Source: Ianthella basta (taxonomy: Eukaryota; Porifera; Demospongiae; Verongiida; Ianthellidae). From it: a stretch of DNA of 64,000 nt. The notes under the pieces were generated by a model, which worked only from the letters and a program-made list of their open reading frames with translations, searched no databases and had not been told where the DNA came from. The stretch is from NCBI GenBank assembly GCA_964019415.1, contig OZ025887.1, forward strand, positions 6,185,950 through 6,249,949, in the 5' to 3' direction. Below are positions 27,353 through 63,871 of this stretch, in pieces (the first letter of the stretch is position 1; every line of letters starts with the position of its first letter). Both the position numbers and the translations under genes were made by a program.

Positions 27353-27436
27353 CGTATCTTCACCGCTCGCGTCGTTCCGTTCAGAAGGCGAAGCGAACTC
27401 CGCAATTAGACACCGGGGGCGTGTCCGGCAGAGAAA
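27353..27436. promoter_or_regulatory. Shared 84-bp gap between EXOC5 and TRIM-NHL start codons
   Basis: The start codons diverge (27352 minus, 27437 plus) with 84 bp between them. The gap is rich in CpG, contains a GC-box-like GGGGGCGTG near 27415, and has no TATA box. Both 5' UTRs and the core promoter must lie here or overlap the genes, which implies a bidirectional promoter. Confidence 0.65.
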
Positions 27437-39094: not shown

Positions 39095-42000
39095 ATGTCG
39101 GGTGAAAATGATGGATATGCAGTTGGCGTTGAAATGGATGAGTTGGGGGAAGGAAAAGAATTTGCTGATCTGGACTGCCAGCCAGTGGAGGAGAAGACAG
39201 TGGCAGAAGTATCCTTCAGGGTCAGGTTTGAAAGCATTCTAATGGACTACAGTGATGAGAAGACTTGGTGGGTTGCAGTTGAAAACCTGCCTAAGAAAGA
39301 CAGTGACTTTGCAGAGAAGGTGAGCTGCAATTCTGTATGTATACAGTTGTATACACCCACAGATTATAAACTGACACACAATGCATGCAGATTATGGCAA
39401 AGTTGACGGCGGAAGAGGAGAAGCCGAGGGAGAAGGCCATTATTGAAGTGATGGTCGACCTCCTTCTCGACATGGAGGGGATGACAGTGCACAGAGGATT
39501 GGTGTATGTGCTGGATGAGGGGCTGCAGAGCTACCCTGTAAGTGTAGAGAGCTAGCTAGTGGTATGTAGTGGCTGGTGTGCATTGCCATATGAATGCAGG
39601 AGTATACGTAGAAATTTGTCATGTTAATGTAACAATTAAGCACTGTCTCTCTCTTATACATAGATGGAGCTCATGGTTGTTGAGCTGCTGAAGCGTGGGG
39701 CAAACCCCAATGAAGAGAGGGGCACAGGTGGCTCCACACCACTCCACCTTGCTATTGCAGAGGAGAAAGTGGAGCTGGTGAAGATGCTGCTGGAGAAAGG
39801 AGCGTATTTGGAGACCGTGAATGATAATGGCTGTACTCCCTTCTTGGAAGCAGTGAAATATGGTGCATCTGAAGAAATAGTTGATCTCCTCCTGGAGCAT
39901 GATGCAGATGTGCACACTCTCACAGAAGATAGGAAGACTGCTCTGCATTTTGCTGCACAAAAAGATGATGAAGTCACGATGAGAAAGATGATGGAGAGGG
40001 ATCCACTCGTGGATGCCAAGGACAAAGACGGCTGGACACCGCTTCACGAGGCAGCCTACTATGGGAGTAAGGGTGCAGCTGGAGTGCTCATTGAGAAAGG
40101 TCAGTCATCGGTGTTACAGTGCATGGCTTGAGCTCTTTACCACCACTTTGATCAAATCACTTAAGTCCACTAGCAACATTAAGAGGCCACTTCTCCCAAC
40201 TCAAGCATGTATGTATGCACACCATGCACCACACACGCATATGTACCTGTTCACTAACTGGACATCTTGAGCATTCCATAGCATGTCATGCCATTTGTTA
40301 TGTGAATCAGATTATAATCCAAGATTATCCTAGATTGCTTGAGTAGGGCTCTGGGACAAGGGGTTCTAGCTCCTGTACCAAGCTAGGCAAGCATGTGATT
40401 AATGCTGTCAACCAAGCATGGATATGATACTCAATGGCCCAGTGTGGATAAAGGAAACTATTGAATTATCACACAATAATAGAAAAACTGAGCAAACTGT
40501 TACCATTCAATAGGTAAAATGGCTCTGCATGGTGTATCAAAGTGTAACTACAGCACATGGGGTGTTAGGTAAGAAGGAGTGGAGATAAAAAGAAATATAC
40601 GTAGGGGTAAAAACAAATTAATGACATCATAATTGGCACACAACAGTGACTCTGCGCTATGCATGCGTGTGAGCAAGACGACTGAGCAGAGTCAGGATGT
40701 CTGCTGAACTGCAGGTGGTATGAAGTGCCTATACTGTTGAGCTAGTGTGCCACTTCCTAAAAGAACAGGCTATAGGAAGTAGTCACCTAGCTTGTGACGC
40801 CTGGGCCCTGGCACCACATTTCAAAGCATTGCTTGTATCTGTGCATGCATGGGATTTTTTAGTGCTCTCATGCACTCACCTGAGACAAAGGGACCGGTAC
40901 TCCACTGATGTCAGTCCACCCACAACTACTCCCAGACATAGGGAGCATGTATTCAACTGCATGATGTAAACCACACACTCCATGCATGTGTGGTGGTACA
41001 AGTGTATTTGTGTTAGCGAGGGGCATTAATTATATATAGCAATAGATTTATAGGAACTCAAGCATTCAGCCTGAAAGCTGCAATATCTCTTTGACAACTT
41101 ATACACATGCATGTTATGTATACATGCTGCAGGGCCTCATAGTCTGCAGTACTGTATGCAGTACTAGCTGTATGCAGTACTGTGTGCAGTACTGTGTGCA
41201 GTACTGTGTGCAGTACTGTGTGCAGTACTGTGTGCAGTACTGTGTGCAGTACTGTGTGCTGGTGTTGCTACAACACCATTGTCCAAAGCACTGCATTGCC
41301 ATGAGAAGGCCTGCATGCATGCCTTACACACATTATCACTTTCAACTCCATGCATGTCAACTATCCTAGTTTTCATGGCCATGCATTCTGTAGGGGCTTC
41401 TGTGAGTGCCAGAGATCACAGGAAGCAGACTCCTCTGCATGTGGCAGCTGAGGGTGGAGATGAGGAAGTCATTGCGTTACTCTTAGACAAGAATGCAGAT
41501 TCCCACTTGCCTGATATAGATGGCAACACTCCACTGGACCTTGCGGCCAAGGAGAGGTTTGAGTCAGCTGTCAACCTCCTCTCGATGCACACATGTTCTT
41601 CAAAGAAAGATGATGCAGTGAAGAAGACCCTTGAAACTGCCATGGGCTCAGAAAGGGTTAAGGATGACCTTGTCAAAGAAAAGATTGGAGTAATGTCACC
41701 AGACAGGTATGAATATACGTATGGCTATGACCTGCAGGGGTGATCATTGGTATTCATTCTAACTGTGCTCCTCTTCCTTCCTGCATTCAGTGTTGTTAGT
41801 ATGTTCAAGCCAAAGAAATGTGGTGGCAAGGAGGAGTACAAGTTCCTGGAGCAGTTTGTCTCAAACTCAAAGCTCAAGGTGATGTCGTGCAGCCAGATAA
41901 GCTAGACCCGTGCACATGCAGGCATGCCAACTAGACTGTTGTCCACTATATCTGGTAGCACAGCATACAATGCCATACATCAATACATATACAGCTGCAG

Positions 42001-45000
42001 TATGTATATGCATGGTAGCTGTATGACAGTAAGAACCAACTCTGCTGCATGCATGCCTTATACATTCCTATGGGGATGGCATGCATGGTTGTATTAAACA
42101 TATATAGTTCATGCACCTTAGGCCCTTGGATGGTGTAAAGTGATTTTGGTTGCACTATCACCTTACCCGCCATGGGCGGCCAATTTAACTCTATTTTATG
42201 AGAAAATTTCAGATTATATTTCAATGTGTGAATCACTATATTGAAAGCTTATCCTTATGATAAATTGGTCTCTGTCACTCACCTGCCTGACTCTCCAGAA
42301 ATCAACCAAGGCCATCATGGACCACTTTGTACTGGGCAAGAGACGTGGGCGTGTCAACTGTGAGATCATTGAGGCTGACAAGAAGGGAATTCCACCAGAC
42401 CAGGATGACTTTGATGAGAGCAGCCAGTCTCTGCTTGATGTCATTGTGGAACAGAATGACAAGGTGTGGATCCTTAAAACTATGTACAGTGTGTATAATG
42501 TGTTTGAAGGTCTTTTGCATTCATATCTGATAACTTGTATGTTTATGTCAATTGGGTAGTCAGGGTTGAGCAATGACCAGTGAGGAGCACCTGACATGTC
42601 CTCCCTCATCCACCCACCCCACTTCAGGAGCTAGCCCAACACCCTTCAATTAAAGCCATTCTGGACTACAAATGGAAGACATTTGGAAGATGGCTCTTTG
42701 TGTGAGTGGTACACACTACCAGTGGTTATGTGCAGTTATCAATGTGTGTCTTTTGCTTCTTTTGTGTTGTGAATCATTTCATGTTGTTGATCTCTCAGCT
42801 TATCCTTCATGGTATATGCTGTCCGTATGATGCTCTTTGGAGTGGCTCTGCTCATTGCTGCTCGACCTGACCTGGACAACCCTGGCTGCTACAGAGATGG
42901 ATGGGACTACTTCAGGGGAGTTTGTGAGGGGATCTCCATGATTCTTTTTCTTGTCAAACTTGGTGATGAGATTCAAGAGATGCTCAGGTATACTGCATGT
43001 GACTGCAACTCCATTACATGATTGGTTACATATGTATATGAAGCTGTGCGTGGCATATATTAGATAAAATGTTGTCATTCATCTTGTCATTTCCTGAATG
43101 CACATGCCTCAAAGCACATTCTGTAATGTTATGCTCAATCTGCAGTTTCCCAAAGTTGTACTTCAAGGACTACTACAACTATGCACAGCTGGTTTCAGTG
43201 ATCCTGCCTTTTCTCATCATCCCTTTCCGGGCAGCCACCACATGGTGTGCCTCCACTGGAGATGGCTACTGTGTTGACCCCACTCTCCTGCCAAATTCCA
43301 CAAATGTCTCCTTAGACATCAACATGGCTTGCATCACTGCATCCCATGTCCAGTGGATCATTGCCTCACTGGCCTACATGGCCAATGCCTTTTTGGTCAT
43401 GGAGTTCCTTGCTCTGTTCAGGTAACTACTGCAGGCACTACATCTGCATGTGCATGATGTATCCATGCATGCAGAGCAGCACAATATGGCTATGTGCCCT
43501 CCATTGCTCACAGCACCACAGGTGTGTATGCAAGGATCCTCTTAAGGATTATTGTGTCAGATATGCTCAAGTTCATAGTGATCTTCACTGTCATTCTGTA
43601 CATCTTTGTTGGCTCCTTCTACCTGTCCCTGAGGGCCGGGGTGAGTAGCGTCAACATAACAACTGGGGCCATCGATTCAGATCTGGAGGTGTTCAGTTTG
43701 GAAACCCTGTGAGTTCTGCATTTGATGCATGCAGACATTGTACATGTGCACACATACACTGAAATGCATGCACATGCCCTAGACCCTGTGAAGTGTGAAG
43801 TATGTGGTACCATCCTGTGCAGGTACCCCTGGCATGTGGTGTTCACCGGTATCCGAATACTGATTGAGGCTGGAGATATCCTCAATGGCAACTACTTTGC
43901 TAATAATGATGAAGGGCAGTACATTGGCTACCAGTGAGTGTGCTTGTAGTGGCATCATCTGGTCCTGCCCTGCCCCTTTAAGTGACCCCCTTCCCCCCTC
44001 CTCCTCCCCAGGTGGTTCTCTATTGTCCTGTACCTGGCTTTCCTGTTTATTGTGATTGTGGTCCTGCTGAACCTGCTCATTGCCCAGATGAGTGACACCT
44101 ACACTAAAGTACAGGAAGATGTGGAGGGGACCTTTGCGATTGCAAGGGCCAGAATCATCTCCAGGCTGCAGAAGGGGAAGTGGCTGTTTTGCAAGGAAGT
44201 GAGGAATTGCTTTAATGGGTACATATTTGTGGGCACCTGATGCAAACATGACTTGTCCCTTGCCTTGTTGTATGCAGACATACAGGAAGCGCTTCTTCAA
44301 GAAGTACGTTTGGACAGGTTAGTCATGCTTGTTGTTTGAATTGACCAGTTGTGCATGTTTGGCTCCTCTGCTCTCCTCAGAGCTCACAGATGAAGAGCTG
44401 AAACAGGATGAGCAAGAGGAACAGGCCGAGGGGAAAGTTGCGTGAGTCACTACCTGATTGAGCATGATTGCCACAACCTCTGACTGCTACGTATATAGAA
44501 GTTTGTGTTGGAATAGACATGTGTTGCTGCATCACCCCATGTGTCCTTGTGTTGGGTACAGTCTAGCAGAAATGAAGATTGACCGTCTGAGTGAAATGGC
44601 AGCTGAGAACACTAGGAGGCTGCAGAATAGAGAGGACACGGCTCTGCAGTATAAGAGGTGTGTGCTGGGATAAGAGATGGTGTGGCTGAATCAATTCATG
44701 TGTACCCTTCATTGTGATGTGTGCAGTCTGGTGGAACAGAAGATTAACCGGCTAAGAGAAATGGCAGCTGAGAATGCTAGAATGCTGCGGAATAGAGAGG
44801 ATACAGCCCTGCAGTATAAGAGGTGTGTGCTGGGATGGACTTGATGAGGATTTGTTGTTATAATATGCACTCCATGTGTCCTACTCCTTGTGTTGGGTGC
44901 AGTCTGATTGAACAGAAGATTGACCAGCTAGATGAAAAGACAGCTGAGAATACCAGAAGACTGCTGAATAGAGAGGATACAGCTCTGCAGTACAAGAGGT

Positions 45001-46040
45001 GTATTATGAAATGGACATGATAATGTGTTGCTGCATCATTTATCGTGTCCTCCTTGTGTTGGGTGCAGTGTGCTGGAACAGAAGGTTGACCTTCTTACTG
45101 AAATGACAGCTCTAGGGCTGGATAGGAGAGAGGGTTCAGCACAGAATATTAGAAGGTGCTTGTTGTGATGGACATGATGATGTGTTTGCTGGATCACTCA
45201 ATGTGTCCTTCTCATGTTGGGTGCAGTGGATTGGAGCAGAAAGTTGATCACCTTACCGAAATGACAGCTCATCGACTGCAGGATAGAGAGGATTCAGCTC
45301 AGACCATCAAGAGGTGCTTATTGTGATGGACATTATGTGCTGCTGGATCACACTGCATGTATGTATGTATGTATGCCTTCTTACTTGTGTTGGGTGCATG
45401 CAGTGCGATGGAACAGAAGGTGGACCACGCTACTGAAATGACAGTCCAAGGACTGCAGAAGAGGGAGGATTCAGCTCAGCATATCAAGAGGTGTTTGTTG
45501 GGAGGGACATTATGTTGTGTTGCTGTATCACCCCATGTGTCTTCTTTTGTTGGGTGCAGTTTGTTGGAACAGAAGATTGACCAGATGTCAGTTGAATTCA
45601 CCAGAAAACTGCAGGAGAGAGAGGACACAGCTCTGCAGTATAACAGGTGTTTGTTAAACTGGGATAGTCATGATGATGTGTTGATGTGCTACCTCAGTGT
45701 TCTCCTTGTTGCATTGGGTGCAGGCTGCTTGAACAGAAGGTTCACCAGCTTAATGAAATGACTACTGAAAACAGCAGAAGACTGCAGGAGAGAGAGGATA
45801 CAGCTCTGCAGTATAAGAGGTATTTGCTTGGATGGTCATGATGATGTGCTGCAGCCGTATATGTATACTGTATCACCTCATGTGTCCTCCTCCTTGTGTT
45901 GGTGCAGTGTGCTGGAGCAGAAGATTGATCGGCTTTATGAAGTGGCAGCTGAAATGACCAAACTGTTGAAGGGTGAGCAGGAGAGTGGGCCGGCTCCTAG
46001 CGAAGACAAGCAGGCACACTATGGTAAAAAGAATAAGTAA
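39095..46040 (+). CDS. Ankyrin-repeat TRP-type channel, copy A (nine-unit tail)
   Basis: Exons: 39095-39319, 39391-39537, 39664-40099, 41394-41706, 41791-41878, 42299-42463, 42628-42701, 42799-42987, 43146-43421, 43514-43708, 43823-43933, 44012-44198, 44278-44317, 44381-44441, then tail exons 44562-44657, 44727-44822, 44903-44998, 45069-45155, 45227-45313, 45404-45490, 45560-45646, 45724-45819, 45908-46040. Total 1123 residues. Residues 125-374 hold about six ankyrin repeats (STPLHLAIAEEKVELVKMLL, DGWTPLHEAAYYGSKGAA, NTPLDLAAKERFESAVNLL). Six membrane helices follow at about 484-780, with pore helix WHVVFTGIRILIEAGDIL and S6 ending VLLNLLIAQMSDTYTKV, the position of the TRPV LLNMLIALM motif. 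A basic TRP-box-like stretch (ARIISRLQKGKW) follows, then an acidic linker and the coiled-coil tail. It is a predicted plasma-membrane cation channel. The family is nearest to TRPV/TRPA in layout, but the exact subfamily is unassigned. Confidence 0.85.
41145..41262. repeat. 12-bp minisatellite CAGTACTGTGTG
   Basis: About nine copies in intron 3 of TRP gene A; absent from the same intron of genes B and C. Confidence 0.88.
44562..46040 (+). other. Array of nine coiled-coil tail exons, gene A
   Basis: Exon lengths are 96, 96, 96, 87, 87, 87, 87 and 96 nt, then a 133-nt last exon. All internal exons begin and end in phase 2, so any one can be lost, gained or skipped without a frameshift. The 96-nt module encodes the pattern LxEQKIDRLxEMAAENxRRL followed by xNREDTALQYKR. 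The 87-nt module lacks three residues. Introns are 66-90 bp, resemble each other and mostly end TGTTGGGTGCAG. The exons therefore arose by repeated duplication of an exon-plus-intron unit of about 165 bp. Confidence 0.92.
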
Positions 46041-46077
46041 CGAAATGGCAATCCTGATGGCAATGGTGTTGAAGACT

Positions 46078-46083
46078 AATAAA
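46078..46083 (+). terminator. Poly(A) signal of TRP gene A
   Basis: AATAAA lies 38 bp after the TAA at 46038-46040. Confidence 0.65.
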
Positions 46084-47365
46084 AAGCAGCGCTCTTATAT
46101 ATAGCTAATCTACCTAGCAGACATAGTTAACTCTGATACACAATTTATAATATCTTGCTAATACATAGCTGACAGTACTACGTACATGCTGTCTTATGTA
46201 TATTGTCATCAATTAATTGATTTTGAATACAAATTCACCAGTGACACGACTTAAGAGTTGTAATTGTTGAGTGTTAAGCCTATACAGAGAGGACAATCAG
46301 TGTGCACGGTCTGTTGACAGTCAATTGGAGAAAGCACAGTGTAGCTAAATATGCATGCATGCATGTATCAGATCTGGAGTTGAAAGGTGACCAGCAGCAC
46401 ACATTGGTGTGGGATGCAGCAACCAAAATTAATGTTACTTGCCTGAAGGTGTAGAGTTCTAAAACCTGCAATCTTTGTGTCCTTGCTCTACATACCTGCA
46501 TTAATTGGTTGCTGCATTCATCCTCTTCATACTTGAGTTGTTCCATACTGGTTCCAACTGTCTGCAACCTGACTGCTGCCATGGTGCATGGTACTATTCA
46601 TGGTGAAGGGTATGAATTATTTCACATTTTCGTACTGAGTGCATCTCTTACTGTACAAGAGAACATCAGACATGCAGGTCACAGTCTACGTATAAGCCTG
46701 TTAACATTGCAACATCACAAGTTGCACTATGTCCACTGCATCTTACCCAAACTGAAGATTGTGATGTACGAAGAAGATCATGCAAGAAATTCCATACAGT
46801 AAATGCCCATTTGCCTGCATGTGCATGGCACCTTTAGCCCTCAGTGACACAATAAGATTTGAAATGTTAGACAGTATTACAAATTATCAACTGAAAGCTG
46901 TTTAATTACAAGAATGACAAGTCATGGAACATATACATGCAATAGGTTAATCCCAGAAGGGATCCTGTTCTCTGCCTCTCTCAGCATTCCTGAGCACCGC
47001 TGCTGCATTCCCCCGAATGCTGAAAGCATAATAATTATAACAACTGAAAGCATACTAATAATTATTATTATAAGGTTACTAGTAGGAAATACCATGCATG
47101 CTTTAAAGGTGCCTACATGTCTGTGGCATCTTATGTCAATCACTAGCTGTGACCACCTTCACAATGCTTGGGTGAAAGGCACCAATTAACCTGTGATTTG
47201 TTATGGGAATTCTGTAACTGTATATCTTTGGGTGCTTCCTGTGTGTTGACTCATAAACGTAGCGGTGAGCTGAGCGTGCTGGCTACTTCAAACCTACCTC
47301 ATACTACTCTCAGGACCTGGTGTTATTTGTGCTGCTTGGGGCTCAGTGAGTAGGCTAGGACAGCG
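46084..47365. other. Spacer between TRP genes A and B
   Basis: No coding region supported. Segments such as 46560-46805 recur in the B-C spacer (55860-56065), including GCCATGGTGCATGGTACTAT and CTTACCCAAACTGAAGATTG, so the spacer was duplicated along with the genes. The last 130 bp before gene B (GTGCTGGCTACTTCAAACC) also recur before gene C and probably hold the promoter. Confidence 0.65.
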
Positions 47366-50300
47366 ATGTCCGGTGATGTTCATTACACAGCCGGCATTGT
47401 TCTGGAAAACCTGGGGAGTGAGGCTGACGTCGTTGATGTGGACATTCAGCCAAAGGAGAATCAGAATGAAGTGGAGGGACTGTCCTTCAAGGGCAGGTTC
47501 AAAAGCATTCTGACAGAAAACTATGACAAGGAGTTGTGGTGGGTTATGGTTGAAGATCAAATAAAGAAAGATGGCGACTTTGCAGAGAAGGTGAGAGGCA
47601 GTTCTGTATTCCTGCATATACAGTGCTATGGCTGGCACTGACACACACATACACACATGTAGGTTATAGTGAAGATGCAGGCAGAAGAGGACAAGATGAG
47701 GGAGGAGGCTATTGTTGAAGTGATGGTAGACCTTCTCCTTGAGATGGAGGGGTTGACAGTGCACAATGGCTTGGTGTATGTGCTGGATGAGGGGCTGGAG
47801 AGCTACCCTGTAAGTGTAGAGTGGAAACACACATTCTTCATTGCACAGCATTGATATTACAAGCACCCTCTCTTATACATAGATGGAGCTCATGGTTGTT
47901 GAGCTGCTGAAGCGTGGGGCAGATCCCAATGAAGAGAGAGGCACAGGTGGGTCCACACCACTCCACCTTGCCATTGTCGAGTACAAAGTACAACTGGTGA
48001 AAGCGTTATTGGAGAAAGGGGCCCATTTGGAGACCAAGGACGACTATGGCTATACTCCTCTCTTGAAAGCAGTGAAATATGGTGCATCTGAAGAAATGGT
48101 TGATCTCCTCCTGGAGCATGGTGCAGAAGTGCATGCTCGCGCAGAAGATAGGAAGACTGCTCTGCACTTTGCTGCACAAAAAGATGATGAAGTCACGATG
48201 AGAAAGATGATAGAGAGAGATCTTTCCTTGGATGCTGAGGACAAAGACAGCTGGACACCGCTCCATGAGGCAGCCTACTATGGGAGTAAGGGTGCAGCTG
48301 AACTTCTCATTGAGAAAGGTCAGTCACTGTTCTTACACTTCATGCATTGTGTCTGCCAGCCACTTGCATCATGTCACTTAGTGGTACTAATCGCCACACT
48401 CAAGAATGCATATAGTCTGTGTTGAGGATTGTCAGGCTGTGAACAGAACAGACCCAAATATAGTGGAAGCTGTTGGGTATATAGAAACATTTCTGTACTT
48501 TCAACAGTTACATTACTACTGTATCTTAGGTGCTCCCATGAATGGTAATGGAAGCCTCTCCATGCAGTTTTGAATGCGAATTTCTTGTAATATTATGTAT
48601 ACAACACACAATTTCAGATGTTTATGTAGATTGTGTACACTCACATACACATTACTGTATGTATGTATGTACTAGTCTGGGGGCCAAGGGGCTGGCTCGC
48701 CAGACTATATATGTATATACGGTACCTGCAGCCATTTTGCCCCTTGTGGTGCTGTGATGTGTGTATGTATGATAATACCACCTGTAGTACAGTATGCTGG
48801 TGTTGTGACCACACTAGAGCACTGCATTGTCCAAAGGCCTGCCTTTAGGTTACACGAACTACCATGCACTTTCTTCTCCTCATGCATGCATTCATCCTCA
48901 TGTGGTTATGTGCATGGCCTTGCTGTAGGGGCTTCTGTGAATGCCAGGGATTATAAGAAGCGGACTCCTCTGCATGTGGCAGCCAACAGTGGCGACAAGG
49001 AGTTCATTGCGTTACTCCTAGATAACAAGGCAGACTCCTTCGTCACAGATCTGGATGGCAACACTCCACTGGACCTTGCTGCCAAGGAGAGGTATGAGGA
49101 AGCTGTCAACTTCCTGGTGACCCAGTCATACTCTTCCAAGAAAGATGATGCAGTGAAGCAGACCATTAAAACTGCTTTGGATTCAGAATGGGTCAAGGAT
49201 GACCTTGTCAAAGGGAAGATCGGAGAGATGTCACCAGTTAGGTATGCCATGTAATGAATGTAAGCAGCGGCATGTGTTCTAACTGCCACCTCCAGTGGTC
49301 ATACTTCCATTATCCTTGACATCCTCAGTATTGTCAGTATGTTCAAGCCCAAGGAAAGTGGTGGCAAGGAGGAGTACAGGTTCCTGGAACAGTTTGTCAC
49401 CAACTCAAAGCTCAAGGTGATGTCATGCAGTCAGCTAGACCCACAGGCACCCCAACTAGCCTGTAGCTACTACCAGTACATCTTGTAGCAGTGACAACAT
49501 ACATGGTAGGACAGTGGGAAACTGCATGCTTTACATTCTTGTGGTTATCTCCAACCAGCATGTAGGTGCAGCTTGACTAGCTGTTATATTAGGTCCTTCC
49601 TATTATTGATCTTGATTACAGTTCCAAAACACTTCCATGGCTTAACTCCCTCTCTAGCTGAACTGATCACTGAATGTATGTATTATAGTGTACAATCAGT
49701 CCATTTGCCACTACCTCAAATACAGCTCAAGGAGATGACATCATGAAGACAGAATATCACAGGCACCCTATATGCTTAACTGAGCAGTATACTTGTTACC
49801 CACAGCCATGGATTAGCATATTATATACATGAGCTGAATGCCCGCCCTACGGGCAGGTTCCAGCTTATCGCAAGCCAGTGAGTCGGTACCTTGCCAGTTT
49901 TGAACTATCTGCACAGGTAGCAACGGAGGCTGGCTGCTATAACGACGGTAGAGTTTAATTCGAACGTTTGCCGACAACGAATAAGATTTTCCGTAACCGT
50001 AAGTCCCAGAAACCAATAATCTCCTAATCGCCATAATTAAAAATGGCGTCTCGGCCCGCGGGGAAAAAGGAAGCGCTTTCTTCGGCTGCAGGGAAGCTAG
50101 GTGAACGACACCCCTCTAAGCTCATGTCCCCCAACTCCCTTAACTGGCATGCCTCGTATCAAGTTAGTACGCCAATGACAGGTAGTGGAAGGGCCAGTTG
50201 ATAATGTTAAAAATGGCGTGTCGGCCCGCGGAGAATTGACGAAGGACGTCTCGCTTTTCGGCCGCAAGGCAGCTAGGCGAACGGCACCCCGATAAGAACA

Positions 50301-53300: not shown

Positions 53301-55001
53301 GTTTGGTACTTGATGCAAACAGCATCTGTCCCTTGCCTTGTTGTATGCAGACATACAGGAAGCGCTACTTCCAGAAGTACGTTTGGACAGGTTAGTCATA
53401 CTAGTTGTTTGAATTGACCAGTTGTGCATGTTTGGCTTCTCTGCTCATCTCAGAGCTCACAGAAGAAGAGCTGAAACAGGATGAGCAAGAGGAAGAGGCC
53501 GAGGGGAAAGTTGCGTGAGTTGCTCCATTCGCATTATCTATGTACACCTTGTGATTGGGTGCAGCCAGATAGAGCATGGTGCATGCTTGAAGTAGTGCAC
53601 GTGTGTCGTTGGGATTGATTTATTGCCCAGGTCACCAATGTGTCTTCTTGAGAGATCAGTTCATTGCAGTAGACCACTGCAACGGAAAGGCCGGGCTAGG
53701 TTGAATAAAGGGCTAATCACTGGATTTTACACCTACCAGCCTTCTACACCATAATGTCTTGAATGCTGGGGGGGCTGGAACCCTATTGATGGCAACCAGT
53801 GATCGCCTTCCCCCACTAGTCATCCTACAAAGATGGAAGAGCCACAGACACCTGTTTTTCCCATAATTGCATGGGGCTCATCAGCGTGGCGTATTGATAG
53901 AAATCAGAATGACTAGCTACTCTTGTATCCAGTGAAACACTTGTGGTTCCAACAAGAGTGAATATTAATGGGGGAAGACTACGTCATGAGTGTGACTTGG
54001 CGTGAGATTGTTGAGAGGTTGGTTCATTGCAGTAGGCCATTGCAACAGACAGGCTGGGCTAGGTTGAACAAAGGGCTAATCACTGGATTTTCAATAGTGC
54101 TCCAGACCCCAGCCTCCTGAGACCCTCCTGAGACACTATGGTGCAGAAGATAGATGTAAATCCAGTGAATAGCCCTTTGCTCATGTGTCTTCTTCTTTGT
54201 GTTGGGTGCAGTCAGACGGAACAGAAGATTGACCGGCTACAAGAAATGACAGCTGAAATTTCTAGAAGACTTCTGAATAGAGAGGATACAGCTCTGCAGT
54301 ATAAAAAGTGTGTGCTTGGATGCATGGTCATGATAATGCATGTTGGACTACTCTGTGTGTTCCTCCTTGTGTTGGGTGCAGTCTGCTGGTACAGAAGGTT
54401 GACCAGGTACAAGAACTAACGGATGAGAACTCCAGAAGACTGCAGGAGAGAGAGGATACAGCTATGCAGTATAAGAGGTGTTTTCTTGAAATGGACGTGA
54501 TGATGTGTTGCTGTATCACTTCGTTTGTCTTTCTCCTTGTCTTGGGTGCAGTGTGTTGGAACAGAAGGTGGACCTTCTTACTGAAATGGCAACTCAACGA
54601 TTGGACAATAGGGAGGATTCAGCTCAGCATATTAAGAGGTGTTTGTTGGGAGGGACATGATGATGTGTTGCTGTATCACCCCATGTCTCCTCTTATGTTG
54701 GGTGCAGTTTGTTGGAACAGAAGATTGACCAGATGTCAGCTGAATTCACCAGAAAACTGCAGGAGATAGAGGATGCAGCTCTGCAGCATAACAGGTGTTT
54801 GATGGTTGAAATACAATGATGCATGTGTTGGAGCATCATTTCATGTGCTCTCATTCTTGTGTTGGGTGCAGGCGGCTGGAAGAGAAATTTAAGCGACTTA
54901 CTGAAGTGACTGCTGAATTGATGGCTGACCTGACCACAGCAGTGCTGGAGGGTGGGCCTAGCCCTGAAGGAGACAAGGCAGGCGCACGTGGCAATCGTTG
55001 A
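47366..55001 (+). CDS. Ankyrin-repeat TRP-type channel, copy B (five-unit tail)
   Basis: Exons: 47366-47590, 47663-47809, 47883-48318, 48929-49241, 49329-49416, 50697-50861, 51039-51112, 51946-52134, 52236-52511, 52599-52793, 52869-52979, 53082-53268, 53351-53390, 53454-53514, 54212-54307, 54382-54477, 54552-54638, 54708-54794, 54872-55001. Total 1000 residues. Exons 1-14 have exactly the same lengths as in genes A and C. Same domain order as gene A: a 124-residue N-terminal region (LWWVMVEDQIKKDGDFAEK), ankyrin repeats (about 125-374), six membrane helices (about 484-780) with pore LIESGDIFGGGYFANN, S6 VLLNLLIAQMSDTYTKV, and the coiled-coil tail (about 837-1000). The S5-pore loop has an N-glycosylation-free acidic stretch, unlike the S3-S4 region, which has a Cys-rich loop with LTNSTNVSLD. 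Introns 5 and 14 carry insertions missing from gene C. Confidence 0.87.
49831..50416. mobile_element. 586-bp GC-rich insertion in intron 5 of gene B
   Basis: The corresponding intron of gene C lacks this block. It is flanked by 8-bp direct repeats ATATACAT (49823-49830 and 50417-50424), as a target-site duplication would be. Its base composition (CpG-rich, TCGGCCCGCGG) differs from the A/T-rich host intron. Inside, a segment of about 170 bp occurs twice in tandem, each copy starting AAAAATGGCGT then TCGGCCCGCGG (50039 and 50209). No transposase frame is recognisable. Confidence 0.72.
51181..51900. mobile_element. Element in intron 7 of gene B, related to gene C intron 7
   Basis: Intron 7 is 97 bp in gene A but 833 bp here. 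The insert starts with GGTGTGACTGTCACACC-type inverted motifs (51190) and contains GGCATGTTGTGTACAGTGGG (51469-51488), shared with gene C. Its left 100 bp (CACCAATCAGCACTCACACC) match gene C only in the opposite orientation (61120-61260). Confidence 0.6.
53650..54182. mobile_element. 533-bp insertion in intron 14 of gene B
   Basis: The same intron in gene C is 123 bp. The insert is flanked by 12-bp direct repeats ATGTGTCTTCTT (53638-53649 and 54183-54194). It contains two direct copies of a 75-bp segment (TTCATTGCAGTAG through AAAGGGCTAATCACTGGATT, at about 53660 and 54015). Its right end (AATCCAGTGAATAGCCCTTT) is an inverted copy of the end of that segment. This is a non-autonomous, composite element. 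Confidence 0.72.
54212..55001 (+). other. Array of five coiled-coil tail exons, gene B
   Basis: Exons of 96, 96, 87, 87 and 130 nt, all with phase-2 boundaries. Same 32- and 29-residue modules as in gene A, four fewer in number. The first exon ends in AAA AA rather than AAG AG at the donor, changing the junction codon from Ser to Asn. Confidence 0.9.
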
Positions 55002-56846: not shown

Positions 56847-59800
56847 ATGTCCGGTGATGTTCATTACGCAGTTGGCATTGTGCTGGAAAACCTGGGGAGT
56901 GAGGCTGACCTTGTTGATGTGGACATTCAGCCAAAGGAGAATCAGAATGAAGTGGAGGGACTGTCCTTCAAGGGCAGGTTCGAAAGCATTCTGACAGAAA
57001 ACTATGACAAGGAGTTGTGGTGGGTTATGGTTGAAGATCAAATAAAGAAAGATGGTGACTTTGCAGAGAAGGTGAGAGGCAGTTCTTTATTCCTGTATAT
57101 ACAGTGATATGGCTGGCACTGACACACACATACACACATGTAGGTTATAGTGAAGATGCAGGCAGAAGAGGACAAGATGAGGGAGGAGGCTATTGTTGAA
57201 GTGATGGTAGACCTTCTCCTTGAGATGGAGGGGTTGACAGCACACAATGGCTTGGTGTATGTGCTGGATGAGGGGCTGGAGAGCTACCCTGTAAGTGTAG
57301 AGGGGAAACACACATTCTTCATTGCACAGCATTGATATTACAAGCACCCTCTCTTATACATAGATGGAGCTCATGGTTGTTGAGCTGCTGAAGCGTGGGG
57401 CAGATCCCAACGAAGAGAGAGGCACAGGTGGGTCCACACCACTCCACCTTGCCATTGTCGAGTACAAAGTACAACTGGTGAAAGCGTTATTGGAGAAAGG
57501 GGCCCATTTGGAGACCAAGGACGACTATGGCTATACTCCTCTCTTGAAAGCAGTGAAATATGGTGCATTTGAAGAAATGGTTGATCTCCTCCTGGAGCAT
57601 GGTGCAGATGTGCACGCTCACGCAGAAGATAGGAAGACTGCTCTGCACTTTGCTGCACAAAAAGATGATGAAGTCACGATGAGAAAGATGATAGAGAAAG
57701 GTCTTTCCTTGGATGCTGAGGACAAGGATGGCTGGACACCGCTCCATGAGGCAGCCTACTATGGGAGTAAGGGTGCAGCTGAAGTACTCACTGAGAAAGG
57801 TCAGTCACTGTTCTTACACTTCATGCATTGTGTCTGCCAGCCACTTGCATCATGTCACTTAGTGGTACTAATCACCACACTCAAGAATGCATATAGTCTG
57901 TGTTGAGGGTTGTCAGGCTGTGAACAGAACAGACCCAAATATAGTGGAAGCTGTTGGGTATATAGAAACATTTCTGTACTTTCAACAGTTGCATTGCTAC
58001 TGTATCTTAGGTGCTCCCATGAATGGTAATGGAAGCCTCTCCATGCAGTTTTCAATGCGAATTTCTTGTAATATTATGTATACAACACACAATTTCAGAT
58101 GTTTATGTAGATTGTGTACACTCACATACACATTACTGTATGTATGTACGTACTAGTCTGGGAGCCAAGGGGCTGGCTCGCCAGACTATATATGTATATA
58201 CGGTACCTGCAGCCATTTTGCCCCTTGTGGTGCTTTGATGTGTGTATGTATGATAACACCACCTGTAGTACAGTATGCTGGTGTTGTGACCACACTAGAG
58301 CACTGCATTGTCCAAAGGCCTGCCTTTAGGTTACCCGAACTACCATGCACTTTCTTCTCCTCATGCATGCATTCATCCTCACGTGGTTATGTGCATGGCC
58401 ACACTGTAGGGGCTTCTGTGAATGCCAGGGATTATAAGAAGCGGACTCCTCTGCATGTGGCAGCCAACAGTGGCGACAAGGAGTTCATTGCATTACTCCT
58501 AGACAACAAGGCAGATTCCTTCATCACAGATCTAGATGGCAACACTCCACTGGACCTTGCTGCCAAGGAGAGGTATGAGGAAGCTGTCAACTTCCTGGTG
58601 ACCCAGTCATACTCTTCCAAGAAAGATGATGCAGTGAAGCAGACCATTAAAACTGCCTTGGATTCAGAAAGAGTCAAGGATGACCTTGTCAGACAGAAGA
58701 TTGGAGAGATGTCACCAGTTAGGTATGCCATGTAATGAATGTAAGCAGCGGCATGTGTTCTAACTGCCACCTCCAGTGGTCATACTTCCAATTCCCTTAA
58801 CATCCTCAGTATTGTCAGTATGTTCAAGCCCAAGGAAAGTGGTGGCAAGGAGGAGTACAGGTTCCTGGAACAGTTTGTCACCAACTCAAAGCTCAAGGTG
58901 ATGTCATGCAGTCAGCTAGACCCACAGGCACCCCAACTAGCCTGTATCTACTACCAGTACATCTCGTAGGAGTGACAACATACATGGTACGACAGTGGGA
59001 AACTGCATGCTTTACATTCCTATGGTTATCTCCAACCAGCAGGTGACTGTTACAGCGGATTCACGCCATCTTGCAACAGGTTCCCAAACTGTGGTCAATC
59101 GTTACCTAGGTTACGAACCAAAACTGTAGCTACACAACTATGATGTCACACAGTCTGTATCCTAGGTAATGACTGCCCAAAGGTTTGGAACCTGTTGCAG
59201 AATTGCGTGAATCCGCATAATGTCCTTGGAAGGTGTATTATTGATCTTGATTTCAGTTCTGAAACACTTCTATGGCTTAACTCCCTCTCAAACTGAACTA
59301 ATCGCTGAATGTATTTGAGTGCAGCTAGGTACTACGTTGAGTCAGTTTGCCGCAAATACAGCTCAAGGCGATGACATCACGCAGACAGAATATCACAGGC
59401 ACCCTATATGCTTAACTGAGCAGTATACTTGTCACCCACAGCCATGGATTAGCATATTACGTATATACTTACATATACACCTCGTTGTCATGGTAAGTAA
59501 AGTAATAAACCCCACAATTTTATGCATGCAAGACTTTTCTATTCAGACCACATAAGGTAATGGTGAATTTCCCCCTCAGTCTTCAGCTTCAGGACTGGAG
59601 TATCATTGATCGCAGCACACTTGTGCTCTAACTATAGTATAATATATGAATGCACTCTTAACTTAATTAGGATAATTGAGAGTGTCCCCTTCGTCCAAAC
59701 CAGTCATTGAATGTTCCTTAACTACAGTAGTCGGTCTCAATTTCACTCTCCAGAAATCAACCAAGGCCATCATGGACCAGTTTGTACTGGGCAAGAGACG

Positions 59801-62800
59801 TGGGCGTGTCAACTGTGAGATCATTGAGGCTGACATGAAGGGAGCTTCACCAGATGAGGATGACTTTGATGAGAACAGCCAGTCTCTGCTTGATGTCATT
59901 GTGGAACAGAATGACAAGGTGAGAATCCTTGAAACTATGTACACTCTAATGTGTTTGAAGGTCTGTCGTTCATTCATGCCTGATAACTTGTATGTTTATG
60001 TCAATTGGGTAGTCAGGGTTGAGTAATGACCAGTGAGGAGCACCTGACATGTCCTCTCTCATCCACCCACCCCACCTCAGGAGCTAGCCCAACACCCTTC
60101 AATTAAAGCCATATTAGACTACAAATGGAAGACATTTGGGAGACGGCTCTTTATGTGAGTGGTATAAGCAACTGTGCCACCAGTGGAGAGTTATCTATGA
60201 ATCCTACAACATCTAAGTTATTTTGTAATTTTTATTCTTAAAGAATACATGTTAGATATATAAAATGACAATGGAAAGAAAGGAAAACAAAACCGGGTCC
60301 ATCAACTACAGGTAAGCACTAACTCTAACAGCAACAGTCCTAAAGAAATCAAAATGAAGAACTACATCCTAAAATTGAAGCACAATTAAAGTTCTGGATA
60401 CAACATCTAAGTATAGCTCTGTCGGAGACAGCTTAGCCTGATGGCATGTTGTGTACAGTGGGAGGACCTCCTCAAACTATGTATGCTATTTGACAAAGAT
60501 CTTCAACTTCACAGCTCAAAGGAAGGAGGTGATAGGAGGAAAATTAGCCAATTTGCCCCCCCCCCCCCCCCCCATTACCTTAAGTAACAGTGTATACGTA
60601 TGTATACAATTTGTGCAGTTTAATGTACCATGAGTTACTTTGTGTTAGGGTTAGGGTATGCTGCGTACTGCATACAGTATATGCAAATCTTCAAAGCAGT
60701 GTGCCATATGTGCAGTGAAATGTATCGTGAAGCTCAATTAAGTGATTAGTCTTGTTACATCACTGTTAACAATGCAGAGTGATGTTCACAGCCAAATTGG
60801 TGCGAAGTAGTTGCCACAGTGAGCCAACCCATTAGCAGTGTGTTGTTCACTCCAACCATACAGTATACACAACATACGTACAATTACCTACCACCTGGTG
60901 GGATAGTTTCTGGGTGACACAAAGTACTTAGTGGTACATTAAACTACACAAATTGTATACATAGTTTGGGGAGGTCCTCCCACTGTACACAGCATGCCAT
61001 CAGGCTAAGCTGTCTTCTACAGTAGCTACATATAATATTATAAATTCGATGCTATAGAATTCATAGATGACTCTCATTTTTGTGTGTGAAATTTTTTATG
61101 TTTTATGTTTTATTTCTTAATCTATCAGAAATGATGTGAACAAGAGTGCACTGGTGTTAGTGTGAACGTCACACTAAAGTAATAGTGTGACTGATCACAC
61201 CTTGGTGTGAGCACTGATTGGTGTGATGGTTACACCATATTTTTAACAGTGATACAAACTGCAAATACGTAAATAGCATATTCACACCAATTTTGGTAGT
61301 GAACATCACACCATGTATTTACGTCACAGTGTTGCTTTGTGTTGTGAATCATTTTCTTGTTCTTGCTCTCTCAGCTTTTCCCTCATGGTGTATGCTTTCC
61401 GTATGCTGTTCCTTGGACTGGCTCTGCTCATTGCTGCTCGACCTGACCTGGACAACCCTGGCTGTTACAGAGATGGATGGGACTACTTCAGGGGAGTTTG
61501 TGAGGGGATTTCCATGATTCTGTACCTCTTCAAACTTGTTGATGAGCTTCAAGAGATATTCAGGTATGTGACTGCACTTGTGATCATTTCTGTGCATGCA
61601 TCATTAGATAGGTAACTCACCTTCAGCATCTCTTTAATGTCAGTGTGTCTCACAATGCAAAATTCTTCCTTTCCAGTTTTCCAAAGTTGTACTTCAAGGA
61701 CTATTACAACTACATGCAGCTGATTTCGGTCATCCTGCCTTTCCTCATCATTCCTTTCCGGGCAGCCACCACATGGTGTGCCTCCACTGGAGATGGCTAC
61801 TGTGTTGACCCCACTCTCCTGACAAATTCCACAAATGTCTCCTTGGACATCAATGTGGCTTGCATCACTGCATCCCATGTCCAGTGGATCATTGCCTCAC
61901 TGGCCTACATGGCCAATGCCATTCTGGTCATGGAGTTCCTTGCTCTGTCCAGGTAACTACCAATGGTGACTGTGGGGTATCCATGCATGCATAGTACAAT
62001 GTATGACTCTGTACCACCACTCTTTCTGCAGGACCACGGGAGTGTATGCGAGGATTCTCCTGAAGATTATTGTGTCTGACATACTCAAGTTCACGGTGAT
62101 CTTCTTCATTGTTCTGTACATCTTTATTGGCTCCTTCTATCTGGCCCTGAGGGCTGGGGTGAGTAGCATTGACATGTCAACTGGAGACATCTCATCAGAT
62201 ATCGAGGTCTTCAGTTTGGAGACCCTGTGAGCTCTGCATGTAATACATGTGCAAATGTGCACACACACACACACACACATGTACATGTATGTGATGCCAC
62301 TCTGTGCAGGTACCCTTGGCATGTAGTGTTCACTGGTATCCGAATCCTGACTGAGTCCGGGGACATCCTTGGTGGTGGCTACTTTGCTAATAATGATGAA
62401 GGGCAGTACATTGGCTACCAGTGAGTGTGCTTGTAGTGACGTCATCTGATGTCTGATGTCATCTGATTCTGCCCTTCCCCTTTAAATTACCCCCTTCCCT
62501 TCCCCTCCCTCCCTCTCCTCAGGTGGTTCTCTGTTGTCCTGTATCTAATCTTCTTGTTTTTAGTGATTGTGGTCCTGCTGAACCTGCTCATTGCCCAGAT
62601 GAGTGACACCTACACTAAAGTACAGGAAGATGTGGAGGGAAACTTTGCAATTGCACGGGCAAGAATCATCTCCAGGCTGCAGAAAGGGAAATGGCTGTTT
62701 TGTAAGGAGGTGAGAATCACTTCAATGTGAATTATATTTGTAGGTAGGTACTTAATCTAAACAACACCTGTCTCTTGCCTTGTCGTATGCAGACATACAG

Positions 62801-63871
62801 GAAGCGCTACTTCCAGAAGCACATTTGGACAGGTTAGTAATGCTTGCTGTTTGAATTGACCAGTTGTGCATGTTTGGCTCCTCTGCTCTCCTCAGAGCTC
62901 ACAGATGAAGAGCTGAAACAGGAAGAGCAAGAGGAAGAGGCCGAGGGGAAAGTTGCGTGAGTTGTTCCATTCGAATTACCTACTGTATGTACTCCTTGTG
63001 ATTGGGTGCAGCCAGATAGAGCATGGTGCAGATTTATTGCCAGGTCACCCATGTGTCTTCTCCTTTGTGTTGGGTGCAGTCAGACGGAACAGAAGATTGA
63101 CCGGCTACAAGAAATGGCAGCTGAGAATGCCAGAAGACTTATGAATAGAGAGGATACAGCTCTGCAATATAAGAGGTGTGTGCTGGGATGGTCATGATGG
63201 TATATAAAACCATTCTGTGTGTTCCTCCTTCTGTTGCATGGGTGCAGTCTACTGGCACAGAAGGTTGATCAGCTACAAGAGTTAATGGCTGAGAACTCCA
63301 GAAGACTGCTGAATAGAGAGGATACAGCTCTGCAGTATAAGAGGTGTTTTCTTGAAATGAACATGATGATGTGTTGCCGAGTCACTCTGTTTGTCCTTCT
63401 TCTTGTGTTGGGTGCAGTGTGTTGGAACAGAAGGTGGACCTTCTTACTGAAATGGCAACTCAACGACTGGACAATAGGGAGGATTCAGCTCAGCATATTA
63501 AGAGGTGTTTGTTGGGATGAACATGATGATGTGTTGCTGTATCACCCCATGTCACCTCTTGTGTTGGGTGCAGTCTGCTGGAACAGAAGATTGACCAGAT
63601 GTCAGCTGAATTCACCAGAAAACTGCAGGAGAGAGAGGATGCAGCTCTGCAGTATAACAGGTGTTTGATAGTTGAAATACAATGATGTGTTGCTTTATGT
63701 ATATATAACCTCAAGATTATTCCTTCTTGTGTTGGGTGCAGGCGGCTGGAAGAGAAAATTAAGCGACTTACTGAAGTGACTGCTGAATTGATGGCTGATC
63801 TGACCACAGCTGTGCTGGAGGGTAGGCCTGGCCTTGAAGGAGACCAGGCAGGCGCACATAGCAAACGTTGA
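56847..63871 (+). CDS. Ankyrin-repeat TRP-type channel, copy C (five-unit tail)
   Basis: Exons: 56847-57071, 57144-57290, 57364-57799, 58410-58722, 58810-58897, 59754-59918, 60081-60154, 61375-61563, 61677-61952, 62032-62226, 62310-62420, 62523-62709, 62793-62832, 62896-62956, 63080-63175, 63248-63343, 63418-63504, 63574-63660, 63742-63871. Total 1000 residues. Exon for exon the same length as gene B, and nearly identical to it in exons 1-5 and their introns, which marks a recent duplication. Pore LTESGDILGGGYFANN differs from B at Ile-to-Thr next to the ESGD filter candidate. S6 VLLNLLIAQMSDTYTKV is unchanged. It has the same ankyrin, six-helix and coiled-coil layout, with a predicted role as a homo- or hetero-tetrameric cation channel assembling through the tail. 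No frameshift or early stop was seen, so all three copies look functional. Confidence 0.87.
59055..59216. mobile_element. 162-bp foldback element in intron 5 of gene C
   Basis: Terminal inverted repeats of about 30 bp: the left end GCGGATTCACGCCATCTTGC matches the right end, GCAGAATTGCGTGAATCCGC when read on the + strand. CAACAGGTTCC and GGAACCTGTTG continue the stem inward. The matching place in gene B (near 49558) lacks it. No target-site duplication is clear. Confidence 0.7.
60425..61014. mobile_element. Long inverted repeat in intron 7 of gene C
   Basis: The left arm (60425-60482 and 60601-60645) and right arm (60917-61014) are inverted copies; GGCATGTTGTGTACAGTGGG at 60443 faces its complement at about 60979. 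The left arm is interrupted by about 120 bp ending in a run of 18 C (60556-60573). Gene B carries one arm only, and gene A has neither. This is a foldback-type element in a 1220-bp intron. Confidence 0.68.
63080..63871 (+). other. Array of five coiled-coil tail exons, gene C
   Basis: Exons of 96, 96, 87, 87 and 130 nt, all phase 2, each aligned one-to-one with gene B. The final exon (RLEEKIKRLTEVTAELMADL) ends the coiled coil and is followed by a short Gly/Pro-rich terminus. Confidence 0.9.

Follow-up and report, generated by a model that had tools for sequence, protein, structure and literature searches.

Tandem ankyrin-TRP channel genes with a C-terminal array of helical exons in the sponge Ianthella basta

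Gene models and exon arrays at the locus

The stretch analyzed here (the window) comprises 64,000 nucleotides of Ianthella basta contig OZ025887.1 and contains three tandem genes for ankyrin-TRP channels, each ending in an array of short exons and a terminal exon. The features are listed below by position in the window.

39095..46040, + strand: gene 1, ankyrin-TRP channel; 23 exons, 1123 aa (exon model)
39664..40099, + strand: gene 1 exon 3, ankyrin repeats; Pfam Ank_2 2.4e-28 and Ank in four stretches (frame 39664-40104)
42628..42701, + strand: gene 1 exon 7, pre-S1 with the conserved Trp (YKWKTF); placed by the fingerprint spacing of PMC9242649, Table 1
44012..44198, + strand: gene 1 exon 12, S6 (LLNLLIAQM) and TRP helix; Phe at the place of the TRP-box Trp; Ion_trans 26.3 bits, cut-off 25 (frame 43986-44240)
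44562..45819, + strand: gene 1 array of putative coiled-coil modules, 8 exons (exon model and module hits)
44562-44657, 44727-44822, 44903-44998, 45069-45155, + strand: gene 1 module exons 1-4
45227-45313, 45404-45490, 45560-45646, 45724-45819, + strand: gene 1 module exons 5-8
45908..46040, + strand: gene 1 terminal exon, last putative coil and stop
47366..55001, + strand: gene 2, ankyrin-TRP channel; 19 exons, 1000 aa (exon model)
54212..54794, + strand: gene 2 module array, 4 exons (54212-54307, 54382-54477, 54552-54638, 54708-54794)
54872..55001, + strand: gene 2 terminal exon (read by eye)
56847..63871, + strand: gene 3, ankyrin-TRP channel; 19 exons, 1000 aa (exon model; Pfam Ank and Ion_trans 7.1e-10)
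63080..63660, + strand: gene 3 module array, 4 exons (63080-63175, 63248-63343, 63418-63504, 63574-63660)
63742..63871, + strand: gene 3 terminal exon (read by eye)

The exon models of all three genes agree with the preliminary description in giving identical lengths for exons 1-14 (225, 147, 436, 313, 88, 165, 74, 189, 276, 195, 111, 187, 40 and 61 nt; sum 2507 nt). AG precedes exons 2-14, GT follows all fourteen, and the spliced reading frames are open over 1123, 1000 and 1000 aa for genes 1, 2 and 3, with one stop each. Three related proteins from JGI align with gene 3 through the exon junctions, P0007 over residues 9-536 (47% identity), P0004 over residues 170-564 (54%) and P0003 over residues 488-847 (58%), which jointly span residues 9-847. 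Between genes 2 and 3, exons 1-14 differ at 52 of 835 third codon positions, versus 24 and 14 at the other two. Because these relatives align across the junctions and third positions change most, we exclude chance gene models. Pfam searches of single exons return Ank, plus Ion_trans barely above the cut-off.

Behind this shared body, the tail exons measure 96, 96, 96, 87, 87, 87, 87 and 96 nt in gene 1 and 96, 96, 87 and 87 nt in genes 2 and 3. Each encodes one module of 32 or 29 residues in phase 2-2, so that the one-exon modules first read from the sequence are recovered as eight in gene 1 and four each in genes 2 and 3. The terminal exons of all three genes finish with a short charged stretch. 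The cluster, first described as one of three genes, continues for approximately 94 kb past the window edge.

Affinities of the membrane domain

Assignment to the TRP channels is upheld by Ion_trans, by the TRP fingerprint and by TRPV-type profile matches. In gene 3, Ion_trans scores 38.9 bits (cut-off 25), together with five Ank stretches. The 12-residue fingerprint (PMC9242649, Table 1) could be placed by spacing at eleven positions, all but F638, of which ten match in genes 1-3; that article states that at least nine fingerprint residues are kept by 95% of TRP channels. The claim that the genes bear all TRP hallmarks thus holds for ten of the eleven placed positions and fails at the TRP-box Trp (W697 of TRPV1), which is Phe in genes 1-3 and in P0003 and Leu in 8 of 11 placed relatives. 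TRPA1, TRPY and two algal TRPs likewise lack this Trp (PMC9242649, Table 1).

A membrane profile built from P0005 and P0003 and compared with the PDB gives only TRPV-type proteins among the best 60 of 138 rows, headed by Inactive (9.2e-15). The membrane part of gene 3 as a single query also finds Inactive best (2e-10), followed by TRPV2, with TRPC6 far lower at 1.1e-3. When the ankyrin repeats are included, the family profile scores 298 bits with NOMPC, 178 with TRPA1 and 114 with TRPV1. In full-length PDB searches, ankyrin proteins filled the rows. The predicted structure of P0006, a relative from Dysidea (pLDDT 74.9, pTM 0.65), has a putative C-terminal helix of 51 residues, and the modeled fold matches TRPV5, TRPA1, Inactive and TRPV1 with TM-scores by query length of 0.34-0.46. 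The predicted structure of P0003 is poor (pLDDT 63, pTM 0.40); this model places polycystin-2 first, with a large rmsd, and Inactive, TRPM8, TRPC and TRPV at similar Z, and does not decide the family.

Judged by sequence, the membrane part belongs to a Group I TRP channel whose nearest neighbor is TRPV. We file the family only within the TRPV/TRPA clade, because the fingerprint and the membrane profile favor TRPV whereas the ankyrin-inclusive profile and the fold favor TRPA1 or rank it equally. A new channel class was rejected, given that sequence, fingerprint and fold are those of Group I TRP channels, and so was the label "TRPA1-like" that NCBI gives to P0006 and P0024, since the fingerprint and the membrane-only profile suit TRPV better.

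TRPV channels (Inactive/Nanchung and TRPV1-6) resemble the window family in having the closest membrane sequence, few ankyrin repeats and the fingerprint residues, and the fold matches of the P0006 model include TRPV5 and TRPV1; they differ in the TRP-box Trp, and we found no TRPV with an exon array. TRPA1 shares ankyrin repeats and has a C-terminal coil comparable to the putative one of the window genes, and its chains are among the best matches to the P0006 model, but it has a long ankyrin stack where gene 3 has five Ank stretches, and one coil where the window genes have an exon array. Its Gly and Arg (the Gly680/Arg697 pattern of PMC9242649, Table 1) are Ala and Phe in genes 1-3, and PMC6386368 describes the central TRPA1 coil with ankyrin domains around it as differing notably from TRPV1. 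The TRPVL fingerprint row of the same Table 1 (W-NG.FWNFIAA) also departs from genes 1-3, which have Y, F, L and F against N, W, F and A. TRPC and TRPM possess a C-terminal coiled coil (PMC6386368), a point of similarity with the putative coil of the window genes. TRPC is set apart by the score of TRPC6 with the gene 3 membrane part, far below that of TRPV. TRPM, to our knowledge, has no ankyrin repeats, and the coil is not known to be exon-repeated in either group.

The module array in relatives and across the genome

The modules were sought among relatives, in databases and in the literature. The module profile matches none of 37 related proteins (from sponges, molluscs, an annelid and others), four of which end before the tail, P0004 and P0007 being two that do so; query words derived from the tail were used in the first homologue search only. 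The gene 1 tail has no PDB hit at E<=1 and no Pfam family above its cut-off, and a match to Pfam ORF11CD3 was rejected at 23.8 bits (cut-off 25). Literature on TRP channels, coiled coils and exon duplication did not reveal a comparable tail in any named TRP family, and articles on tandem exon duplication and coiled coils, judged by title, included none on TRP channels. The first impression that the tail is not that of a named TRP family agrees with these searches.

P0003 passes from an acidic linker straight into one coil-like stretch in which no module was read by eye; this coil has no significant match to the module profile (i-E 0.64) and looks like a terminal exon by eye only. P0006, 30% identical to the window family, belongs to a wider group from Dysidea, Ephydatia (Em0001g1088a), Halichondria, Sycon, Haliotis, Aplysia ("vanilloid receptor") and Owenia, which shares the membrane domain, Q(M/L)xDT after S6 and, in most members, ankyrin repeats. 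Most of the C-termini read in this group have a short helix-like end, and none matches the module profile. The description of the genes as a candidate undescribed system goes too far: C-terminal coiled coils are already known in TRPA1, TRPC and TRPM (PMC6386368), demosponges have been reported to harbor a large diversification of TRP channels (PMC7385117) and a short helix-like end occurs in most relatives read, whereas for the multiplication of a coil into an exon array we found no precedent. We regard the genes as a TRPV/TRPA-clade family with a multiplied C-terminal helical exon and not as a new channel class.

Stretches of the 209-Mb host genome were picked by S6 or module hits, and 20 genes were modeled, including the three of the window; approximately 40 other S6 places lie outside these models. 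Among 19 readable tails, 17 have 3-8 modules and two have none, proportions that apply to selected stretches and not genome-wide. Confinement of the array to three genes was rejected. Per gene, 0, 3, 4, 5, 6 or 8 modules were met in this one genome. The 93 modules, counted without hits scoring below 14 (127 raw hits), comprise 43 of 96 nt, 49 of 87 nt and one of 93 nt. The 96-nt and 87-nt modules contain no stop codon; the 93-nt module is the sole one that departs from 29 or 32 residues and the sole one with prolines. Terminal exons begin like modules, and 16 of 18 match the module profile at i-E < 1e-5, although these 16 were found with that same profile, and the other two, identified by eye, give i-E values of 0.003 and 0.1. 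The terminal exon of C20 4969879 was read by eye, as were those of genes 2 and 3. In a family tree restricted to the window family and five relatives, the module-free genes and P0003 lie at an unresolved basal fork and the arrays fall in two inner groups.

Several loci call for individual comment. A 200-N assembly gap (C20:6271986-6272287) within the tail of the sixth gene of the array (6266299) makes its count of eight modules uncertain; genes 4 and 5 are 99.5% identical over 3550 bases and may represent a duplication introduced by the assembly. The tail at C20 6340333 is masked, that of a C21 paralogue could not be made out, and the C13 paralogue carries a coil exon of another kind (87 nt) and one of 42 nt. 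A module-like hit containing a stop lies at C23 3962504, outside the modeled stretches.

Periodicity, selection and the putative role of the tail

The tail has a helical periodicity. Hydrophobicity peaks at 3.60 residues (mean power 11.2, versus 0.2-5.4 at other sampled periods), with p <= 0.01 against shuffles in all 18 tails. Both module lengths return an alpha helix to almost the same face (29/8 = 3.63 and 32/9 = 3.56 residues per turn). Coherence is 13.9 with the real lengths and 10.4-12.3 with lengths shifted by 1 or 2, a moderate gain, but a shift of -3 and a permuted module order (15.3 each) exceed the real order. A period of 3.6 residues also fits a single amphipathic helix and by itself cannot tell it from a multi-stranded coil. 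Such a helix might lie on the membrane or bind another helical protein without self-assembly, and polar residues (T/A, N, R) at several assumed core places suit it; against this reading, which we consider very improbable, the periodicity persists along joined tails of up to eight modules, and the TRPA1 coil that occupies this position assembles as tetramers in vitro (PMC6386368).

Purifying selection acts between modules: dN/dS is 0.40 and 0.50, and dN is below dS in 691 of 705 and 603 of 680 module pairs, which were retained from 780 each for dS between 0 and 1.5 and are not independent. These pairs, and the finding that 92 of 93 modules keep 29 or 32 residues with prolines only in the exception, speak against neutral or nearly neutral multiplication, in which short frame-neutral exons would be gained and lost by unequal crossing over in a recombining tandem cluster and would matter little provided that the helix stays unbroken. 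Phase 2-2 modules, short introns (<=110 bases in 81 of 89 measured) and near-identical neighbors (C20 4993869/4994063, 29/29 residues; C22 modules 4 and 5, 27/29) are what it would predict. It is further favored by the comparison of genes 2 and 3, where dN/dS is 0.48 in the tail and 0.24 in the body, so that the tail is less constrained, and where tail changes at codon positions 1, 2 and 3 number 16, 9 and 11 of 166, the first exceeding the third. We judge neutral multiplication rather unlikely.

We posit instead, with a probability of roughly one half, that the tail forms a stalk inside the cell that serves channel assembly, its length set by the number of exons. The genes are tandem members of an expanded Group I (TRPV/TRPA-clade) family. 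Their subunits combine an ankyrin domain, six membrane helices that include a pore, a TRP helix and a predicted C-terminal helix. Module-free family genes would end in one short coil, and a coil exon would have been tandemly duplicated in most genes examined, its phase 2-2 keeping the frame at any copy number and a module length held at 29 or 32 residues returning the helix to almost the same face. The tails of four subunits might then coil together as a single cytoplasmic stalk under the pore and stabilize assembly. Both the stalk length (~18 nm with four modules and ~36 nm with eight) and the preferred pairing of paralogues could depend on how many modules there are and of which kind. Tail length may, as first suggested, set assembly partners or tether distance. 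The genes with their exons, the family, the varying copy number, the helical periodicity and the purifying selection between modules are observed, and multi-stranded coiling, the tetrameric state and the relevance of length to assembly are what we infer here. We counted in favor of the stalk the exon models, the TRPV-type profile, the P0006 model, the range of 0-8 modules, the periodicity, dN/dS, the module-like starts of the terminal exons, the tree and the TRPA1 tetramers, and against it the single-helix period, the length-shift coherence, the polar core, the lower constraint and the codon counts of the gene 2 and 3 tails, the weak P0003 match and the micromolar need of TRPA1. On this last point, PMC6386368 reports that tetramers of the isolated TRPA1 coil require concentrations in the tens of micromolar and judges the coil unlikely to drive channel assembly. 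In TRPA1 the tetrameric coil has ankyrin domains around it (PMC6386368).

The range of 0 to 8 modules, with terminal sequence and module type staying similar, would also suit a cytoplasmic tether, in which the tail acts as a long spacer attached at its far end to the cytoskeleton or a scaffold and exon number sets the reach or slack of a mechanical sensor. TRP channels are implicated in sponge flow sensing (PMC7385117 and PMC3890488), but past the array there is no recognizable binding domain, the terminal exons of genes 1-3 finishing in the short charged stretch, and we think a tether unlikely. An extension of the assembly stalk that we regard as quite improbable is a length-coded zipper, in which at least 19 paralogous subunits carry coil tails of 0-8 modules (29 or 32 residues, of several sequence types), only tails matching in module number and order zip fully, and exon number, possibly with exon skipping, sets co-assembly; skipping is possible because the modules are in phase 2-2.

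With sister genes in one genome bearing from none to eight helical pieces, the channel itself seems ordinary and the length of its tail a setting that evolution has adjusted; in the cases known to us, TRP coiled-coil tails elsewhere are single and fixed. These natural variants, one channel body with tails of 0, 3, 4, 5, 6 and 8 modules, offer a direct test of tail length in a tetrameric channel, and the array shows how a frame-neutral exon of helix-compatible length can be amplified. Sponges respond to flow and irritants without nerves, and the exon array adds a structural twist to their reported TRP diversification. If the zipper were true, it would give a combinatorial repertoire of sensory channels to an animal probably without neurons.

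The three channel genes of the window

Our exon models bear out the preliminary description, which had proposed three tandem ankyrin-TRP channel genes with exons 1–14 of equal length:

39095–46040, + strand, gene 1 (exon model)
47366–55001, + strand, gene 2 (exon model)
56847–63871, + strand, gene 3 (exon model)

Exons 1–14, here termed the body, amount to 2507 nt in each gene, and their introns are bounded by AG and GT in all three. The proteins of genes 2 and 3 share 94% identity, and that of gene 1 shares about 75% with each of them. Purifying selection acts on the body (dN 0.022 and dS 0.091 between genes 2 and 3; dN 0.127 and dS 0.326 between genes 1 and 3). Three JGI relatives, P0007 (47% identity, 15 gaps), P0004 (54%, 3 gaps), and P0003 (58%, 11 gaps), align across the exon junctions of gene 3, which thus have outside support, and jointly cover its residues 9–847.

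The intron before the first module is 697 bases in gene 2 and 123 bases in gene 3; by eye, the long intron (region 53620–54180) has the appearance of an inserted element. Elsewhere in the window, a tandem repeat of about 3.2 kb (19800–23043), open over about 1044–1069 residues in at least three frames and on both strands, is likely a minisatellite rather than a gene. An open frame at 27410–29677 resembles a TRIM-NHL protein by eye, and other animal-looking genes were named from their frames in the same way.

Channel body and family placement

Pfam searches of gene 3 detect ankyrin repeats (Ank_2, 2.8e-41; five Ank stretches) and an Ion_trans domain (38.9 bits against a cut-off of 25). Among the best 60 of 141 PDB matches, the membrane part alone matches TRPV channels, insect Inactive (2e-10) and TRPV2 included, with weaker matches to NOMPC, TRPA1, PKD2L1, and TRPC6. 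A profile of two ankyrin-free relatives matches 138 PDB sequences, the best 60 of which are all of TRPV type; with the ankyrin-containing family profile, NOMPC and TRPA1 outrank TRPV1. All TRP hallmarks had been claimed for these genes, and most of this stands: compared with the fingerprint of twelve TRP residues in PMC9242649, 10 of the 11 residues placeable by spacing match, but the TRP-box tryptophan is replaced by phenylalanine. Leucine occupies this place in 8 of the 11 relatives in which it can be set.

For P0006, a relative from Dysidea, a structure predicted from 33 sequences is of fair quality (pLDDT 74.9, pTM 0.65). Foldseek pairs it best with TRPV5, TRPA1, Inactive, and TRPV1, at TM-scores of 0.34–0.46 when scaled by query length. 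The model has strands at 323–325, 332–336, and 699–703 and one C-terminal helix at 716–766. On these profile, fingerprint, and fold comparisons, we provisionally assign the window family to the TRPV/TRPA clade within Group I of the TRP channels; by membrane sequence, it is nearest to TRPV. Among named proteins, homologue searches place those of sponges closest, followed by proteins of molluscs and an annelid; together with the animal-looking genes of the window, this makes a sponge the probable origin of the DNA. PMC7385117 has already reported that TRP channels diversified in Ephydatia and other demosponges. Near P0006 are uncharacterised mollusc and annelid TRP proteins (P0018–P0037) named TRPV1-like, TRPA1-like, vanilloid receptor, or not at all, and in another JGI protein, P0002 (1625 aa), WD40-like repeats are apparently joined to a TRP-like membrane domain.

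A tail of repeated, probably coiled-coil modules

Modules of 29 or 32 residues, one per exon, had been described behind the body, and the window indeed contains such exons of 87 or 96 nt, eight in gene 1 and four each in genes 2 and 3, with a terminal exon after each array. Each module exon begins and ends after the second base of a codon, and therefore any number can be joined in frame. Most modules carry EQK(V/I)D near their start and RED(T/S)A near their end. The gene 1 tail has no PDB match at E ≤ 1 and nothing over the cut-off in Pfam, and our literature search did not find such a tail architecture reported on TRP channels.

The whole host assembly (209 Mb, 96 contigs; the window is C20 6185950–6249949) was queried with the gene 3 S6 exon (exon 12, S6 and TRP helix): 65 places match at E ≤ 0.1, of which 61 reach E ≤ 0.001, and they make up a very large TRP-like family. 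A module query gives 88 places at E ≤ 1, every one on contigs C20, C22, or C23. In 200 kb selected for S6-exon or module matches, we modelled 20 genes holding an S6 exon, although a few exons of paralogue models were missed by our script; 13 lie in an array with the window genes, 5 in a second C20 array (4.97–5.02 Mb), and one each on C22 and C23.

Module numbers in the modelled genes
First array: 8, 4, 4, 6, 6, 8, 4, 3, 5 (minus strand), 0, 6, 0, one masked
Second C20 array: 4, 3, 5, 6, 5
C22 gene: 5
C23 gene: 8

The first array and the C22 gene keep the window lengths in most of exons 2–14, exon 1 being variable. In the second array, the departures mainly affect exons 9, 10, and 12. Modules are arrayed in 17 of the 19 readable tails of these selected stretches. 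Among 93 modules, 43 are of 96 nt, 49 of 87 nt, and one of 93 nt; prolines are present in the last and in none of the other 92.

A truncated copy at C22:2637000–2640500 has three modules and a terminal exon; the examined stretch yields no S6 exon. Further S6-exon places lie on C2, C3, C5, C10, C18, and C21, and some pairs with identical scores (C2/C6, C2/C12) may be assembly duplicates. A more distantly related paralogue on the minus strand of C13 (5595263–5595900) carries a coil exon of its own, 87 nt and 29 residues long (SLMESRVHQLTELTKLKLQEQEEKAEERD), along with an exon of 42 nt and a terminal coil; a similar repeat is apparently present in its exon 14.

Along the joined modules, hydrophobicity peaks strongly at a single period, 3.60 residues (mean power 11.2), with shoulders of 5.4 at 3.55 and 5.3 at 3.65 and values of 0.2–2.5 at other sampled periods, and all 18 of 18 tails exceed shuffles (p ≤ 0.01). 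Thirty-two residues equal four heptads and one stutter (32/9 = 3.56) and 29 equal three heptads and two stutters (29/8 = 3.63); 31 fits this arithmetic poorly, and the lone 31-residue module is the proline-containing one. Shifting the junctions by 1 or 2 cuts the signal from 13.9 to 10.4–12.3, and shifts of +3 and +4 give 11.9 and 12.5; a shift of −3 and permuted module order each raise it to 15.3. There is moderate support that modules keep helical phase across junctions. The tail may be a single amphipathic helix; from its sequence, a coiled coil is likely.

Origin, selection, and putative role

The array is most simply explained by amplification, in this lineage, of a single ancestral coil exon. 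The beginnings of terminal exons resemble modules, and 16 of 18 match the module profile at i-E < 1e-5, although these same 16 had been found with that profile and the two identified by eye match poorly. In P0003, an acidic linker leads directly into one coil-like stretch, seen by eye, and its end does not match the module profile (i-E 0.64). Two paralogues in the host genome have a terminal coil and zero modules, and so has a third, on C3. The membrane-part tree leaves the first two of these module-free genes, with P0003, in a basal fork that it does not resolve, and arrays occur in two inner groups. The module profile matches none of the 37 related proteins, four of which stop before the tail; of the homologue searches that yielded this set, only the first used tail words. 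Module copying continues, since the peptides of C20 modules 4993869 and 4994063 are identical and two C22 modules differ at 2 of 29 residues.

The tail may be the outcome of nearly neutral exon growth, but dN/dS between modules is 0.40 and 0.50 (from 705 and 680 pairs, respectively, each out of 780), purifying selection that argues against pure neutrality. Between genes 2 and 3, dN/dS is 0.48 in the tail versus 0.24 in the body, and tail changes at codon positions 1, 2, and 3 number 16, 9, and 11 of 166, without third-position excess; this weaker constraint and lack of excess argue against a precise role for each residue.

PMC6386368 describes a C-terminal coil of TRPA1 that forms tetramers, located among the ankyrin domains, and C-terminal coils likewise in TRPC and TRPM. 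A helix rises 0.15 nm per residue, at which a stalk of four modules (122 residues) would measure about 18 nm and one of eight (244 residues) about 36 nm. The tail may also act as a mechanical tether. We confirm that the tail architecture is real and belongs to a channel of known kind, and we consider its function putative: in the most economical reading, the tails would zip into a stalk beneath the pore, and the zipped stalk would stabilise or select subunits.
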